A DNA stretch of 45,717 nt. It comes from a virus. The position numbers were made by a program, and so were the translations under genes. The stretch lies in the IMG/VR virus record IMGVR_UViG_3300030108_000318, positions 1 through 45,717 of that record; one strand, 5' to 3'. Under the pieces are notes generated by a model. It did not search any database and was not told the DNA's origin. It saw nothing but the letters and a program-made list of their open reading frames with translations. Shown here one piece after another: positions 12,178-20,952 of the stretch. Numbering within the stretch: the stretch's first letter is position 1; each line of letters begins with the position of its first letter.

Positions 12178-12206
12178 ATTATAGAGCTTTATTAAGAGTT
12201 TGTCAA
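12178..12206 (-). promoter_or_regulatory. Late leftward sigma70 promoter before terS
   Basis: On the minus strand: TTGACA (12206-12201), 17-bp spacer, TATAAT (12183-12178), a perfect consensus. The expected start point is about base 12171, one base before the terS ATG. The spacer begins AACTCTT, so the half-site AAACTCT straddles the edge of the -35 box. Confidence 0.85.
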
Positions 12207-12233
12207 GTATTATAAAATATTTTTTAAAAACTA

Positions 12234-12262
12234 TTGACAAAACTCTAAAATACCTTTATAAT
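12234..12262 (+). promoter_or_regulatory. Rightward consensus promoter into the non-coding control region
   Basis: TTGACA (12234-12239), 17-bp spacer, TATAAT (12257-12262), perfect consensus on the plus strand. It lies back to back with the terS promoter, -35 boxes 27 bp apart. No open reading frame of note follows for about 600 bp on the plus strand. The spacer contains AAACTCT (12240-12246). Confidence 0.75.
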
Positions 12263-12308
12263 AACACTTAGGTGTGCCGGGGTTAAATACATATCCCACA
12301 GACCTATT

Positions 12309-12341
12309 AAACCCGAACTAACCTGTCAAACCCGACCTAAC
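12309..12341. repeat. Short tandem-like direct repeat AAACCCGAMCTAAC
   Basis: AAACCCGAACTAAC (12309-12322) and AAACCCGACCTAAC (12328-12341) differ at one base and are 19 bp apart. Their place in the non-coding control region makes an iteron-like role possible; two copies are too few to be sure. Confidence 0.45.
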
Positions 12342-12420
12342 TCCTTAACAACTAATTTAGCTTAAAATGTATAAGCATTAGTATATATATATGGGAGGGG
12401 GTACGGGTGTCCTGCCTACC

Positions 12421-12462
12421 CCTAAAACTTCACAAACTCTGCAGAGTTTAATAGGTTTTAGG
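12421..12462. repeat. 42-bp two-part dyad with core palindrome AAACTCTGCAGAGTTT
   Basis: The core 16-bp palindrome (12434-12449) is flanked at 5 bp on each side by CCTAAAAC (12421-12428) and GTTTTAGG (12455-12462), which are perfect inverted copies about the same centre (12441.5). This is either a large operator or a long hairpin with a 5x5 internal loop. Confidence 0.7.
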
Positions 12463-12493
12463 AGTTTTCACCGAGAAACTTCCCAAGATTTGC

Positions 12494-12511
12494 CAAACTC
12501 TATAGAGTTTG
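12494..12511. repeat. 18-bp palindrome with AAACTCT half-sites (TA centre)
   Basis: CAAACTCTATAGAGTTTG is a perfect palindrome. It has the same half-sites as the copies at 12434-12449 and 12583-12600 but an AT instead of GC centre, as expected if the half-sites, not the centre, are under selection. Confidence 0.7.
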
Positions 12512-12582
12512 ACTAGCTCTTACAGAGCTAAAAAGAGATTTACAGCGAAATTGTGAAGATTTTGAAGATAACAAATAACTTT

Positions 12583-12600
12583 TAAACTCTGCAGAGTTTA
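12583..12600. repeat. 18-bp palindrome with AAACTCT half-sites (GC centre)
   Basis: TAAACTCTGCAGAGTTTA is a perfect palindrome whose 16-bp core is identical to the copy at 12434-12449. Centre-to-centre distances between the three copies are 61 and 89 bp. Confidence 0.7.
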
Positions 12601-12837
12601 CCAGACTTTGTTGTAATATCAGGCTTTTAGAGAGTTTTCCTACGGAAACTTTGGTGAATGGTCAGGATATTTTTTTCCGGTCAACACAGAGCTTTACAGA
12701 GCCTCACAAAGCTATGCTTTCCTGCACAGCTCGACACATAGCGTAGCACATAACATGACATGCCTTTCTTCGGCATGGGGAAATCGCATAAGCATTATGC
12801 AGGTGTTTCTTGTACGGAAATGACAGGTGCCTGAGGC

Positions 12838-12861
12838 AAAAAAAACCCCTCGAATGAGGGG
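12838..12861 (-). terminator. Intrinsic terminator of the isolated leftward gene
   Basis: On the minus strand: CCCCTC-ATTC-GAGGGG stem-loop followed by eight T (12845-12838). It ends the 93-aa gene at 12887 and shields the control region from its transcript. On the plus strand the same stem is followed only by CTTT, so it would stop rightward transcripts poorly. Confidence 0.85.
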
Positions 12862-12886
12862 CTTTGAAGTTAAATCTCTTTAGAGA

Positions 12887-13168: not shown

Positions 13169-13227
13169 TGCAAATCTCCTTGCCCTTTAGGGCAGTTTGT
13201 GCTTCCCGACATTGGTGAAGCTATTAC

Positions 13228-13257
13228 ATAGTAATCCGATTTGCCGAAAAATGTCAA
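13228..13257 (-). promoter_or_regulatory. Promoter of the isolated leftward gene
   Basis: Minus strand TTGACA (13257-13252), 18-bp spacer, TACTAT (13233-13228), then a leader of about 55 nt with an AAGGAG ribosome site before ATG 13168. Just upstream of the -35 box is an inverted repeat AGAATA-A-TATTCT (13273-13285), a possible regulator site. Confidence 0.65.
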
Positions 13258-13353: not shown

Positions 13354-13544
13354 AAAGTCTAGTAAGACTTTAATTTGTTTTTCAAATCTTTACACCCGTA
13401 ATACTTACGCATATACCCCTACATAGTACTTACATAAATAGGATTTCTTATGGTTAGGCGAAAGTCAATACCATTATGCGTAAATTGTGCGTAAATATTT
13501 ACGTGTAATCGTCATGTAAACTTTATGCAGAAATCGTCATGTAA
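13354..13544. promoter_or_regulatory. Repeat-rich non-coding stretch upstream of the early promoter
   Basis: It contains a hairpin AAAGTCT-AGTA-AGACTTT (13354-13371), two TGCGTAAAT copies 11 bp apart (13477-13485, 13488-13496) followed by ATTTACG in the opposite sense, and two exact AATCGTCATGTAA copies 25 bp apart (13507-13519, 13532-13544). No gene is visible. The layout fits a binding region for a regulator or replication protein ahead of the first early promoter. Confidence 0.5.
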
Positions 13545-13572
13545 GTTTAAAACTATATGTGCAGGTTTCTGC

Positions 13573-13601
13573 TTGACAAACTCGACAGCATTTGATAATT
13601 T
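13573..13601 (+). promoter_or_regulatory. First early rightward promoter
   Basis: TTGACA at 13573-13578 with a -10 either GATAAT (13594-13599, 15-bp spacer) or TAATTT (13596-13601, 17-bp spacer). The -35 is followed by AACTC, as in the late promoters. The leader holds GAGCT-ACCT-AGCTC (13638-13651), next to the GGGAG ribosome site of the first early gene. Confidence 0.55.
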
Positions 13602-13663
13602 GATAGGGCAATCAGCAATGTCGTTGGTTGCATTTTTGAGCTACCTAGCTCGGGAGAAACATT

Positions 13664-14015: not shown

Positions 14016-14375
14016 ATGGAAAATTTAATTGATAAAATTAGCGAAACTAGGCAGGAAAGGCTTTTAAATCCTCAAATGTCTGACCACTACAAAACTATGT
14101 TTTTCGGCAAATATGGTTGGAGAATATATACCATAAAAGTTGGGCGTAAGTGGGTATATATGAGGTCAAACTCTCACAGAGCTAAACTTTCACTTGATAA
14201 ATTTAAAACACATGCGTTTGTTCAATGGCATTGTGATGCAAAAACTCACGCTAGTTCAGTAGCTTATAATGAAACAGGCTCGTATAAAAGACCTAGAGCT
14301 TGGTGGAAAAATTATGGTTTTACTAGCAATCCTGCTGATATTCTTTATACAAAAGGAGATTTAGTTTGGAAATAA
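14016..14375 (+). CDS. Early protein of unknown function, 119 aa
   Basis: MENLIDKISETRQERLLNPQ starts a basic, aromatic-rich 119-aa protein with FFGKYGWRIYTIKVGRKWVY, KTHAFVQWHCDAKTHASSVA and PRAWWKNYGF. Many Trp/Tyr/His and Lys suggest a compact, perhaps nucleic-acid-binding domain; no motif is diagnostic. Last gene of the first early unit, followed by the next promoter module. Confidence 0.75.
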   Translation: MENLIDKISETRQERLLNPQMSDHYKTMFFGKYGWRIYTIKVGRKWVYMRSNSHRAKLSLDKFKTHAFVQWHCDAKTHASSVAYNETGSYKRPRAWWKNYGFTSNPADILYTKGDLVWK

Positions 14376-14387
14376 AATCGTAAATAT

Positions 14388-14439
14388 AAATACTTACCTG
14401 TGCGTTTCAGTTGACTTGGAACGCATTAGGCAGTATAAT
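14388..14439 (+). promoter_or_regulatory. Early promoter module, copy 1
   Basis: AAATACTTAC (14388-14397), 13 bp, TTGACT (14411-14416), 17 bp, TATAAT (14434-14439), followed by GCTCGGCA. The same arrangement recurs at 14981-15034 and, diverged, at 15622-15675. Confidence 0.85.
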
Positions 14440-14451
14440 GCTCGGCAGTTG

Positions 14452-14465
14452 TGGTAGGGCTACCA
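14452..14465 (+). promoter_or_regulatory. Leader hairpin TGGTAG/CTACCA
   Basis: TGGTAG-GG-CTACCA (14452-14465) begins about 12 bases after the -10 box. A similar TGGTAGT/ACTACCA hairpin occurs at 16921-16944 and a longer one at 16375-16405. Confidence 0.5.
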
Positions 14466-14495
14466 TGACTTTTATTAAATTTTTATAGGAAAATT

Positions 14496-14975
14496 ATGAA
14501 AAACTTATTGAGAACTATATTGACAGAACTTGAAAATAATCATCTTATGTTTAGAGCCAACGCTTATGAGCTTTGGAATTATGGTTATACAGATATGATT
14601 ACAGATTGGGGCTATGACCAAGATAAACTTATTGAAACTTTACAAGAAGTTGACCTTGACACTCGTGGTGGAAACATATTAATTTTAGAAGAGAAAAATT
14701 GGCTAAGCCATGATGATTTAATAGCTAAACTTAAAAAAGAAGCATCAACATTTTATAGTAAAAGTTCGTTAAAAAATATTTCTGACGAAGAAATTATTGA
14801 AAACTTTCCAGAAAAATATTATTATGGCGACCATGTAATTATGTGGGAACTTTGGAATGAAGGCATAGAATGTTTAAGTGATTATTCCACAGGACTTGAC
14901 AAATTTTTTGATATGACAAAGTTATATGAAGATTGGGATAACGAATTTGCTAAATTTATTAAAGGTTTATCCTAG
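14496..14975 (+). CDS. Early acidic protein, 159 aa
   Basis: MKNLLRTILTELENNHLMFR begins an acidic, Trp/Tyr-rich helical protein with an internal echo: ANAYELWNYGYTDMITDWGY near the start and HVIMWELWNEGIECLSDYST near the end. TATAGGA precedes the ATG. Sole gene of a unit bounded by two promoter modules. Function unknown; high acidity would suit a DNA mimic or inhibitor, which is only a guess. Confidence 0.75.
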   Translation: MKNLLRTILTELENNHLMFRANAYELWNYGYTDMITDWGYDQDKLIETLQEVDLDTRGGNILILEEKNWLSHDDLIAKLKKEASTFYSKSSLKNISDEEIIENFPEKYYYGDHVIMWELWNEGIECLSDYSTGLDKFFDMTKLYEDWDNEFAKFIKGLS

Positions 14976-14980
14976 CATAT

Positions 14981-15034
14981 AAATACTTACTCGTGCTATC
15001 TCACTTGACAAGGGGTAGCACTTGCGAGTATAAT
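14981..15034 (+). promoter_or_regulatory. Early promoter module, copy 2
   Basis: AAATACTTAC (14981-14990), 14 bp, TTGACA (15005-15010), 18 bp, TATAAT (15029-15034), then GCTCGGCA. The leader has GACTG-CTCA-CTCAGTC near 15049-15064. Element identity with copy 1 is exact in the upstream box, -10 and the GCTCGGCA downstream block. Confidence 0.85.
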
Positions 15035-15083
15035 GCTCGGCAACTAACGACTGCTCACTCAGTCATTTTAAAGGTACTTACTT

Positions 15084-15344
15084 ATGAAAAAGAAATGTGA
15101 AAACCCTAATGGACTTGCGAATATGAAAACTATTAAAGATAGTAAAGCTAAGAAGCTAATGATATTTAACACTCTTTGGAATGTTCAACAATACTTAACT
15201 GAACATAACTATCGTTTATTATCTAATTATTCTTTTAAAAATGATGTTTATAAGTTATACAGAAAAGGCTCTAAAGTTATTTCTGTTAAGCCTTATAAGC
15301 AAAACTATGACCATATTAAATATCAAATAGAGGTAGTAAAATGA
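15084..15344 (+). CDS. Early basic protein, 86 aa
   Basis: MKKKCENPNGLANMKTIKDS starts a Lys-rich 86-aa protein with KKLMIFNTLWNVQQYLTEHN and a beta-rich end (VISVKPYKQNYDHIKYQIEV). Internal Met at residue 14 is an alternative start. Its stop overlaps the next ATG (AAATGATG). Function unknown. Confidence 0.7.
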   Translation: MKKKCENPNGLANMKTIKDSKAKKLMIFNTLWNVQQYLTEHNYRLLSNYSFKNDVYKLYRKGSKVISVKPYKQNYDHIKYQIEVVK

Positions 15345-15622
15345 TGAAACAAGGACACTTAATAAATAAAATTAATAGACTTATACCTATTGCAAATGCA
15401 ACACCTCTGTCAGAATTTTATGATGATGATAGCATAGGTATTTGGATAAGGGGTAGTGAATATTCATATAAAGATAGATTATTATTTGAATATTATCTAG
15501 CATATGAAGAAGGTTTTAATGAATCTGATTGTGTACATCCGGAACTATTAAAAATAGTAGAGGATGCAGGGTGGTTTTGGGAACCTTATGATGCAGGTAC
15601 ATTAATGCTTTATCCTAATTAA
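15341..15622 (+). CDS. Early acidic protein, 93 aa
   Basis: MMKQGHLINKINRLIPIANA begins a 93-aa protein that turns acidic and aromatic (YDDDSIGIWIRGSEYSYKDR, LAYEEGFNESDCVHPELLKI, AGWFWEPYD). Coupled to the basic 86-aa gene by a 4-base overlap; a basic/acidic pair in one unit hints at, but does not prove, a complex. Its stop lies at the edge of the third promoter module. Confidence 0.7.
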   Translation: MMKQGHLINKINRLIPIANATPLSEFYDDDSIGIWIRGSEYSYKDRLLFEYYLAYEEGFNESDCVHPELLKIVEDAGWFWEPYDAGTLMLYPN

Positions 15623-15675
15623 AATATTTACCCCTGTGTTCTCATTTGACATGGGGGTTGTTTTGATGATAAGAT
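15622..15675 (+). promoter_or_regulatory. Early promoter module, copy 3 (diverged)
   Basis: AAATATTTAC (15622-15631), 14 bp, TTGACA (15646-15651), 18 bp, TAAGAT (15670-15675), then AGTGGCAACT. Spacing matches copies 1 and 2, but the -10 box is weaker. Confidence 0.65.
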
Positions 15676-15922
15676 AGTGGCAACTCAATGAGCAGTAAGC
15701 AGAAGAGCTGAAAATATAAACATTCAGATAAAATAATATAGCTTACTCCTAAGGGATATGGAGAAACACTAGCAGATGAACAAATATAAAGATAGACTAC
15801 ATGAAACTCCCCCGAACTCTTTGCAGACACCGAAAGGTCTTAGAGTAAATTCCCACTTGCTAGTTGATGGGTACAAATTAACTAGCACCTTTATTAACTT
15901 TAATAACTATGAGGATAGTAAT
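15676..15922 (+). promoter_or_regulatory. Long leader before the 141-aa gene, with hairpin
   Basis: About 240 bases separate the promoter from ATG 15923. A frame from 15776 is open in phase, but the ATG at 15923 has a GAGGA ribosome site at good distance, so I read this as leader. It contains TGCTAGTT / AACTAGCA around a 14-base loop near 15857-15886. A longer protein starting at 15776 remains possible. Confidence 0.4.
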
Positions 15923-16348
15923 ATGGCTAAATTAATTTATAGCAGAAATGGTAGTGCGACTACTGAAAGTATTGATAATGCTTCACCTATGATTCAAGCA
16001 ATATGGGCTCAGGCTCATAACTTTGGTGCAAATATTGTCAGAGTAAGAGCAGAAAAGAATAGATTTGGTGCTGATACAGGTCGTACTTTTAATTCTTTTC
16101 ATCATGGTAGAGTATCAGTCTACAAGCAAAAAGATAAAGTGCATCAAAGTAATGCCTTATATTTTGCTAGAAGGATACCTCTTACCAAAGTAAACAAGGG
16201 TATGCAAATACTCGAAGTTGCTTCCAATGTTGATATCCAAAACACTTTGGATACTGTTGATGCTATTCGATATTATTCAGAGACTTCTTTCTTTGAAAGA
16301 CTTTGGAACAGAATTAGATATGGAACTCCCATGTCTATCACTTCTTAG
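15923..16348 (+). CDS. Early protein of unknown function, 141 aa
   Basis: Chosen start MAKLIYSRNGSATTESIDNA at 15923 (GAGGAT eight bases upstream). The protein is basic with PMIQAIWAQAHNFGANIVRV, a Phe/His/Arg-rich middle (FGADTGRTFNSFHHGRVSVY) and FFERLWNRIRYGTPM at the end. No family recognised. It precedes a strongly structured intergenic stretch. Confidence 0.7.
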   Translation: MAKLIYSRNGSATTESIDNASPMIQAIWAQAHNFGANIVRVRAEKNRFGADTGRTFNSFHHGRVSVYKQKDKVHQSNALYFARRIPLTKVNKGMQILEVASNVDIQNTLDTVDAIRYYSETSFFERLWNRIRYGTPMSITS

Positions 16349-16443: not shown

Positions 16444-16902
16444 ATGGCACAAATGAGAGTAAGAGACCAAGACTTGTTGATTACGCAAGTTAAGGATAAA
16501 GTAAATGCAAAAGGTTTAGAAAACCTGCAAAATAATAAGAAATTGCAACGCATAACTAATGAGCTTGAAGCAAGAATTGCTAAAGTTAAATCTTTAATCA
16601 TATCTCGAAACGACCTTGATAAAGAGATAAAAAAGCTAAAAGAGTATATGGAAGAAGCTGTTGATAAATTTCAAAAAGAGCATGGTTATGATGATGATGG
16701 CTATAGTTATAGACCATACTTTCAAGGTATTGATTTTGATGCTAATAGATATAATGGAGAAGCTCCTGAATATAAACTTGTATGGAATATGTCTCGGGAA
16801 GATGTCCAAGCGTTAGAAACTAAAGTAAGACTTCAAACTATGGGTACTGACTTTGATGTTTACAAACTCATTGAGGACTTGACAGCAGAGTTCAGTTCGT
16901 AG
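16444..16902 (+). CDS. Coiled-coil early protein, 152 aa
   Basis: MAQMRVRDQDLLITQVKDKV starts a protein whose residues about 25-80 form a coiled coil (LQNNKKLQRITNELEARIAK, LDKEIKKLKEYMEEAVDKFQ). The second half is acidic with YDDDGYSYRPYFQGIDFDAN and a helical end. AAGGAG lies upstream. The last 24 bases overlap a promoter. Function unknown. Confidence 0.75.
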   Translation: MAQMRVRDQDLLITQVKDKVNAKGLENLQNNKKLQRITNELEARIAKVKSLIISRNDLDKEIKKLKEYMEEAVDKFQKEHGYDDDGYSYRPYFQGIDFDANRYNGEAPEYKLVWNMSREDVQALETKVRLQTMGTDFDVYKLIEDLTAEFSS

Positions 16903-16908
16903 TATACT
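16879..16908 (+). promoter_or_regulatory. Early promoter overlapping a gene end
   Basis: TTGACA (16879-16884), 18 bp, TATACT (16903-16908). Downstream comes CGCAGTTGGTAGT, resembling the CGGCAGTTGTGGTAG that follows the promoter at 14411, so the two seem related. Confidence 0.6.
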
Positions 16909-20244: not shown

Positions 20245-20439
20245 ATGGAAAACGAAGAAAATGTAAGACGATTATCAAGAGATGAATATAGAAAACTTAT
20301 GACTTTTTTTGATGATAACTACGAAGAAATTTATGCTAATAAAATTGGTTATAATGTTCTATTTAATAAAGAAGATGATACTTTTACAGTATCATTAAGT
20401 GATACATCAATTTTCGATTGGCAAGATATTTTTACTTGA
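20245..20439 (+). CDS. Small acidic protein, 64 aa
   Basis: ATG 20245 (MENEENVRRLSRDEYRKLMT) has GGGAG six bases upstream; ATG 20233 in the same frame is an alternative adding four residues. Acidic alpha/beta protein ending DTSIFDWQDIFT. The stop codon overlaps the next promoter, so the SSB is transcribed separately. Function unknown. Confidence 0.65.
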   Translation: MENEENVRRLSRDEYRKLMTFFDDNYEEIYANKIGYNVLFNKEDDTFTVSLSDTSIFDWQDIFT

Positions 20440-20464
20440 CAAAACAAATTAATTAGTGTATAAT
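20436..20464 (+). promoter_or_regulatory. Promoter before the SSB gene
   Basis: TTGACA (20436-20441), 17 bp, TATAAT (20459-20464), a perfect consensus, with an AAAGGAGG ribosome site about 20 bases further on. It would boost expression of SSB, needed in large amounts. Confidence 0.85.
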
Positions 20465-20499: not shown

Positions 20500-20952
20500 A
20501 TGGCAGTATTAGAAGGTAAAGCCTATTGGGCATCAGTAACAACACCAAACACTACGTTTGAGCCTGTGTATACAGTTGACTTAGTCGTGGGAGATGATGT
20601 TGCTAATGATTTTGAATCTCGTGGCTTTAAAGTAAAAGACTTATCCATTAAGGATGAGAATGGAGGTGCTACACCTGTTGGTAGAGCACTTACTATAAAG
20701 CGTAAAGTTAATGGACCAAATGGCATGGTAAGAAATGCCCCTAAACTTTTCGATAAAAATAAAGAACCATTAGATGTTATTGTTGGTAATGGCTCTACTG
20801 TTAAAGTGCAGTATAATGAGTGGGAAACTGACAATAAATATGGTAGCTTTAAAGGCTTGGATTTCCAAGCTATGCAGGTGCTTGATTTAGTCTCTTTAAA
20901 ATCACAAGATGGCTCTGAATTAGACCCATTCGGTGATGGAGAAGAGTTCTAA
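20500..20952 (+). CDS. Single-stranded DNA-binding protein
   Basis: A 150-aa protein: an OB-fold-like beta core (LEGKAYWASVTTPNTTFEPV, YTVDLVVGDDVANDFESRGF, STVKVQYNEWETDNKYGSFK) and an acidic tail ending DPFGDGEEF, the usual partner-binding tip of SSBs. The pattern resembles T7 gp2.5-like phage SSBs. It coats replication intermediates and recruits polymerase and helicase-primase. Own strong promoter; overlaps the next ATG by one base. Confidence 0.85.
   Translation: MAVLEGKAYWASVTTPNTTFEPVYTVDLVVGDDVANDFESRGFKVKDLSIKDENGGATPVGRALTIKRKVNGPNGMVRNAPKLFDKNKEPLDVIVGNGSTVKVQYNEWETDNKYGSFKGLDFQAMQVLDLVSLKSQDGSELDPFGDGEEF

Follow-up and report, generated by a model that had tools for sequence, protein, structure and literature searches.

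T7-type phages have intergenic units in which a promoter is combined with an RNase III site. The closest analogue in principle of the locus analysed here is the PeSL (promoter early stem-loop) cassettes of T4-type phages, reportedly described by Arbiol et al. in 2010 and by Comeau et al. in 2014. As cited in later papers, PeSL elements consist of a repeated σ70-like promoter and a stem-loop, are located between small variable genes and are linked to gene shuffling (PMC4503421; PMC5931544). Cluster K mycobacteriophages carry SAS/ESAS elements: SAS, conserved over 13 bp, is located at start codons, and the arms of ESAS follow a consensus (PMC3203893). The nut sites of lambda and the put sites of HK022 sit downstream of both early promoters, and HK022 put consists of two stem-loops of about 70 nt with shared sequence (PMC9378689).

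The window analysed here covers 45,717 of the 46,687 bases of a virus record, has a G+C content of 33% and, judging from its genes, belongs to an uncultivated marine podovirus of the HMO-2011-like kind. The large terminase shares 67% identity with its counterpart in Pelagibacter phage HTVC115P, the next matches being other HMO-2011-type phages; by terminase, HMO-2011-type pelagiphages, roseophages and HMO-2011 itself are the closest named records. Matches for the portal/head–tail adaptor, a DnaB-type primase/helicase, a family A DNA polymerase (PolA) and a ribonucleotide reductase (RNR) are consistent with this type, for which a genome paper does not mention promoters or terminators (PMC9038755). 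A near-DNA search in phages gave no match, and neither the 119-residue product of the first rightward gene, MENL, nor the 93-residue product of the first leftward gene has a relative among 50,697 phage records, so that the lineage and its cassette system are known from metagenomes alone.

As in PeSL, a σ70-like promoter recurs between the genes of a variable region, a stem-loop is joined to the promoter and genes have been shuffled between copies (in the pairs L117/L115 and L017/L031 described below). In contrast to PeSL, the stem-loop overlaps the promoter and is made from the promoter itself, its sequence varies freely and it is not followed by a U-tract. Since the effective terminator of PeSL is not apparent from the sequence here (m3 is a borderline case) and the phage is an HMO-2011-like podovirus rather than a T4-type phage, the module was not filed as PeSL. 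The T7 units share with it the placing of a promoter and a putative RNA-processing hairpin in common intergenic spaces of an operon, but in T7 phage-polymerase promoters adjoin the hairpin, whereas here host-type promoters lie inside a predicted hairpin. The SAS/ESAS elements likewise recur upstream of small nonstructural genes and contain inverted repeats; identity with them was rejected, as the SAS site GGGATAGGAGCCC gave no match near start codons with up to two mismatches. What appears to be new in this system is the addition of promoter-made border hairpins and of leader hairpins to a known type of mobile promoter cassette. The reading that we favour, with a probability of roughly 0.6, is that a repeated, hairpin-bearing σ70-type promoter module forms the border of interchangeable cassettes in the rightward operon.

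Promoter modules and cassette genes

Three modules are found on the + strand at the positions and with the spacings given by the original prediction, which had also assigned them a σ70-type architecture; their −35 elements, spacings and −10 elements agree with this. Module m1 (14388–14447) consists of a AAATACTTAC block (14388–14397), 13 bp, TTGACT (14411), 17 bp, TATAAT (14434–14439) and GCTCGGCA. Module m2 (14981–15042) consists of AAATACTTAC (14981–14990), 14 bp, TTGACA (15005), 18 bp, TATAAT (15029–15034) and again GCTCGGCA, the element after the −10 that had been said to be common to copies 1 and 2. Module m3 (15622–15682) consists of AAATATTTAC (15622–15631), 14 bp, TTGACA (15646), 18 bp, a weak −10, TAAGAT (15670–15675), and GGCA. 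By this architecture each module is a predicted σ70-type promoter. A fourth copy, P0 (13573–13609, + strand), was matched by both the regular-expression and the nhmmer searches, with TTGACA at 13573–13578, the −10-like GATAATTT at 13594–13601 and GGGCA; it is more diverged than m1–m3 and aligns with the first promoter of the relatives. P0, the hairpins in read-through RNA and the leader hairpins were overlooked by the earlier reader.

The composite pattern AAATAYTTAC-N12–15-TTGAC-N26–31-GGCA is present in three places in the window and in none of 300 first-order simulations with the dinucleotide make-up of the window, and for the upstream block and the −35 alone the expected number is 0.007. 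The short upstream block by itself is common and mildly enriched (44 one-mismatch matches versus 23 expected). Of 25 non-redundant internal copies, about 21 have a TTAC or TTAT that ends 14 bp before TTGAC, and this is the conserved upstream element; the TTTAC block could serve as an UP-like element or bind a protein, the fixed spacing being compatible with either. Promoters without the module are also seen further downstream, a σ70-like one (TTGACA/TATACT) at 16879–16908 and a perfect TTGACA/TATAAT one at 20436–20464, about 40 bp before a gene at 20500.

The first gene behind P0 is MENL (14016–14375, + strand), which is conserved at this place in relatives and has 67 related loci. Its AF2 model (pLDDT 91) has four strands and a long helix, and a fold search in the PDB gave no match below an E value of 0.1; the protein is a candidate regulator or RNA-binding protein. 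As no relatives of MENL were found in bacterial genome contigs, no host was assigned. Cassette 1 holds a gene of family F10 (14496–14975, +; 159 aa) with relatives in L114 and L115. By family comparison, cassette 2 holds the conserved backbone gene F2 (15084–15344, +; 86 aa) and a second gene, F14 (15341–15622, +; 93 aa). Cassette 3 holds F6 (15923–16348, +; 141 aa), for which the start MAK... of its homologues indicates 15923 as the likely true start in place of the listed ORF start at 15776. The leader between m3 and F6 is about 240 nt long (15683–15922), with a strong hairpin at 15858–15887, and a gap of similar length is present in L114 and L117. The cassette genes had been proposed to serve host takeover. 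This part of the original prediction found no support, as searches of Pfam, PHROGs and PADLOC gave no match apart from weak coiled-coil-type matches of 16444–16902. The rightward operon is probably early, a designation drawn from its position alone.

Recurrence of the module and exchange of cassettes

A first promoter-pattern scan of the viral collection returned mostly unrelated contigs. In related marine contigs, a regular-expression search gave 57 unique module copies and an nhmmer profile search gave 120 unique matches in 2.0 Mb, weak ones included; about 80 of these are further strong, non-identical copies. Across these relatives TTGACA and the GGGCA start region vary least, together with the TTYC directly preceding the −35 and the TTAC/TTAT 14 bp upstream of TTGAC. 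In the scanned stretches of the isolates HTVC115P and HTVC104P the module was not found, and the promoter-like sites there are without hairpins. In the relatives the module precedes unrelated genes, belonging to several families or occurring as singletons. Recurrence outside this isolate, on which the original prediction had staked its case, is therefore established, and the different genes behind the module agree with what it had expected from an alignment of intergenic regions. The backbone across relatives reads P0, MENL, promoter, variable gene, F2, promoter, variable genes, F6 and a GP88-like protein, some parts being exchangeable.

Cassette exchange can be viewed directly in three alignments, with one clear genome pair for the gain or loss of a whole cassette. 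In this pair, L117 and L115 have the upstream gene and the block TAAATATAAATACTTA in common, after which L115 continues with an m1-type promoter, an F10 gene and m2, whereas L117 continues directly with the m2 promoter. One promoter-and-gene unit is thus present in one genome and absent from the other, as the idea of plug-in cassettes had implied, and the breakpoint lies within the repeated AAATACTTA block, as would be expected from homologous recombination between modules; the difference may be an insertion or a deletion. In the second alignment, L017 and L031 are nearly letter-identical in the upstream gene, promoter, leader and Shine–Dalgarno sequence and carry unrelated genes from the ATG onwards, and in the third the module forms a common island in L102, L018 and L030 with differing flanks. 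Taken as a whole, the original prediction has held for the architecture, the recurrence, the different genes and the loss or gain of whole cassettes, but not for host takeover.

Hairpins overlapping the internal promoters

Each of the three modules is predicted to fold into a hairpin on the + strand. In RNA read through m1, CCTGTGCGTTTCAG-TTGAC-TTGGAACGCATTAGG (14397–14430) places the −35 in the loop (z = −3.8); m2 forms GTGCTATCTC-ACTTGACAA-GGGGTAGCAC (14993–15021; z = −4.3); and m3 forms ACCCCTGTGTT-CTCATTT-GACATGGGGGT (15630–15658; z = −4.8), which was terminator-like in the scan and is the only one of the three to be followed by a U-rich tail (UGUUUUGAU). These best z-scores from a sliding fold compare with a background mean of −0.5; the values of −3.8 and −4.8 require better-placed frames, as in a fixed 62-nt frame m1 and m3 score −1.7 and −1.0. 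A further hairpin with a U-rich tail, in the m1 leader (14447–14470, +), was recorded in the terminator-like scan.

Among 62 non-redundant copies, folded in 62-nt windows, the mean z was −1.9 for internal, +0.1 for first and +0.7 for divergent promoters. A second set, chosen by promoter score near MENL only and still containing chance matches and coding stretches, gave −1.7 for internal promoters versus +0.3 (Mann–Whitney p = 2.6e-5), with z below −2 in just a third of its 43 internal promoters. P0 and the divergent promoter of the window are likewise without a border hairpin. The arms around the −35 and −10 differ from copy to copy, even within one genome, while the pairing is kept, which excludes a palindrome of conserved sequence. 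When right arms were swapped between modules the stem score fell from 15.6 to 13.4 (s.d. 0.4), and none of 20,000 swaps reached the real value. An inner-stem family shows eight double-change cells versus 3.4 in shuffled data. All ten pairs of the m2 stem are kept in four relatives, with two double changes, a result that 125 of 500 shuffles equal, these sequences being too few for significance. The more distant relatives L140, L141, L146 and L156, whose MENL is about 53–58% identical, carry equally strong but unrelated stems of about 19–22 bp over such promoters.

In the promoter-selected set, folding is stronger for the transcript strand than for the complementary one (p = 1.5e-6), and a strand-neutral stem search found G·U and A·C pairs in a ratio of 30:6 in internal copies (p = 7e-5 versus equality), other promoter classes being without bias; the corresponding ratio in shuffled sequences, 1.21:0.86, weakens this strand effect but does not remove it. 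The asymmetry disfavours a DNA operator or a cruciform, and folding of the same strand as single-stranded DNA is a possible alternative to an RNA hairpin. The stems of the 16 strong internal hairpins begin shortly behind the upstream stop codon, at a median distance of 14 nt, and a U-tract (at least five T in the next eight bases) follows none of them. An intrinsic terminator was consequently rejected as the general reading, with m3 as a possible exception. The proximity to the stop codon together with the lack of a U-tract favours an intercistronic processing or stabilizing element over a terminator, and this is how we interpret the border hairpin. Its position and length vary between phages (about 7–22 bp), and some of the stems would be rather short substrates for RNase III.

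Proposed mechanism and alternative explanations

In the proposed mechanism, the host σ70 polymerase would use each promoter, so that every cassette could be expressed on its own, and the core promoter region would form a hairpin in RNA read through from an upstream promoter. As most of the hairpin precedes the likely start site, a transcript initiated at the promoter itself would carry little or none of it and the complete hairpin would be confined to read-through RNA, which fits its absence at the first promoters. The border hairpin would thereby mark read-through RNA as a processing or 3′-end-stabilizing element (an RNase III site or an exonuclease barrier), and recombination between the repeated modules would shuffle the cassettes. 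The outermost two promoters would instead give transcripts without a border hairpin that begin with a conserved-loop hairpin placed like nut or put. A compact group of marine phages could in this way swap small genes while each is kept expressed, and one short intergenic stretch would serve as promoter, recombination border and structured RNA together.

It is rather unlikely, in our estimation, that the operon is an ordinary one in which σ70 promoters were duplicated by descent and the hairpins are roleless by-products of base composition or of quasi-palindrome template-switch mutation. Quasi-palindromes do arise by mutation without selection, the hairpin positions are variable and strong hairpins are not confined to the promoters (z < −3 in 4% of the 62-nt windows of the region); against this stand the dinucleotide-shuffle and swap controls, the first promoters, which have a similar make-up but no hairpin, the pair-preserving changes and the excess of G·U over A·C, which is not expected of template-switch palindromes. 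Slightly more doubtful is a PeSL-like promoter–terminator cassette, in which the hairpin would end the upstream transcript and the promoter would restart transcription: the layout and the gene shuffling are alike and m3 has both the UGUUUUGAU tail and a terminator-like score, but the strong internal hairpins are uniformly without the run of T. Rho-dependent termination at the hairpins is possible.

The remaining two alternatives treat the inverted repeats as DNA elements. That they are operator half-sites for a phage repressor acting at each promoter appears very improbable, for although they overlap the −35 and −10, and AT-rich palindromes (ATGTAAA-N3-TTTACAT) occur upstream in some relatives, the arm sequences differ between copies of one genome and the G·U asymmetry does not suit a DNA site that is symmetric between the strands. 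An operator or an UP-like element may instead reside in the upstream TTTAC block. We give least credence of all to the idea that the hairpins work as single-stranded DNA and direct recombination as the attC sites of integrons do. The pairing is indeed conserved while the sequence is free, and the cassette borders fall within the module, but the L117/L115 breakpoint lies outside the stem, the first promoters have no stem and plain homologous recombination suffices.

Divergent control region and leader hairpins

P0, the rightward operon's first promoter, stands opposite a leftward promoter (13228–13257, − strand; TTGACA 13257–13252, 18 bp, TACTAT 13233–13228) that is homologous to the divergent promoters of the relatives. 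Within this divergent control region, TTTAC/CTTAC half-sites in both orientations are clustered at 13384–13560, reaching nine per 200 bp compared with a window mean of 1.5; the maxima of 200 simulations had a mean of 5.9 and a largest value of nine. The cluster is possibly an operator or iteron region. A further stretch of about 700 bp without clear genes (12180–12870) holds two perfect divergent σ70 promoters, at 12206 (−) and 12234 (+), three palindromes of the AAACTCTGCAGAGTTT type and a GCCGGGG(G)TTAAATACATA leader that recurs in the relatives L030, L048 and L135; this stretch is possibly a noncoding RNA or an origin.

Transcripts from the first promoters on both sides begin with GGCA and a hairpin with the loop AAUGNY (or AAYNGU). 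In the window, the rightward leader hairpin is GCAATCAGC-AATGTC-GTTGGTTGC (13605–13634, +), with 27.9 bits and an E value of 2.5e-7 in the covariance model R1, and is followed by a second hairpin, GAGCT-ACCT-AGCTC (13638–13651, +; z = −3.2), just before the Shine–Dalgarno sequence GGGAG. The leftward hairpin, GCTTCACC-AATGTC-GGGAAGC (13201–13221, −), has the same loop and one bulged A and falls below the R1 threshold; the leftward leaders of relatives score 15–33 bits. As MAFFT misaligned the shorter leader hairpins, R1 was built from leaders sharing one register. A set of 21 sequences, chosen for having the stem, has 93% of its cells paired, 42 double-change cells versus 13.8 shuffled and a covariation score of 0.76 versus 0.28; the rows of the leader swap test were chosen likewise, so that this test is biased. 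The positions of the R1 matches are better evidence than this covariation: of 57 matches in 582 kb nearly all are in the two leaders, and nine of ten longer records have one to three, usually two. No R1 match was found in L092–L094. An Rfam search gave sub-threshold matches only, no family reaching its threshold, and the leader hairpin is a candidate for a new RNA family, for which the covariance model and the clear genomic place make a role testable.

As with nut and put, the RNA element begins both divergent early transcripts, the leftward copy of the window being recognized by sequence only. It differs from put in being one short hairpin with the loop AAUGNY, and the P0 leader itself has two hairpins. 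By its placement it may be a nut/put-like element, and a 5′-end stabilizer would be an equally simple role. Tentatively, and as an extension that is more likely to fail than to hold, the two kinds of hairpin might constitute a two-layer RNA code, in which a nut/put-like antitermination or stabilizing leader hairpin, possibly bound by MENL, is combined with the promoter-made border hairpins; if true, read-through RNA and promoter-started RNA would be processed differently at the cassette borders. In L187, L190, L191, L196, L198 and L199, which represent a different set of phages, promoter-like sites are followed by a leader hairpin CAGCAAGG-GATGTT-CCTTG (e.g. L187:3428), which is perhaps a related leader element.
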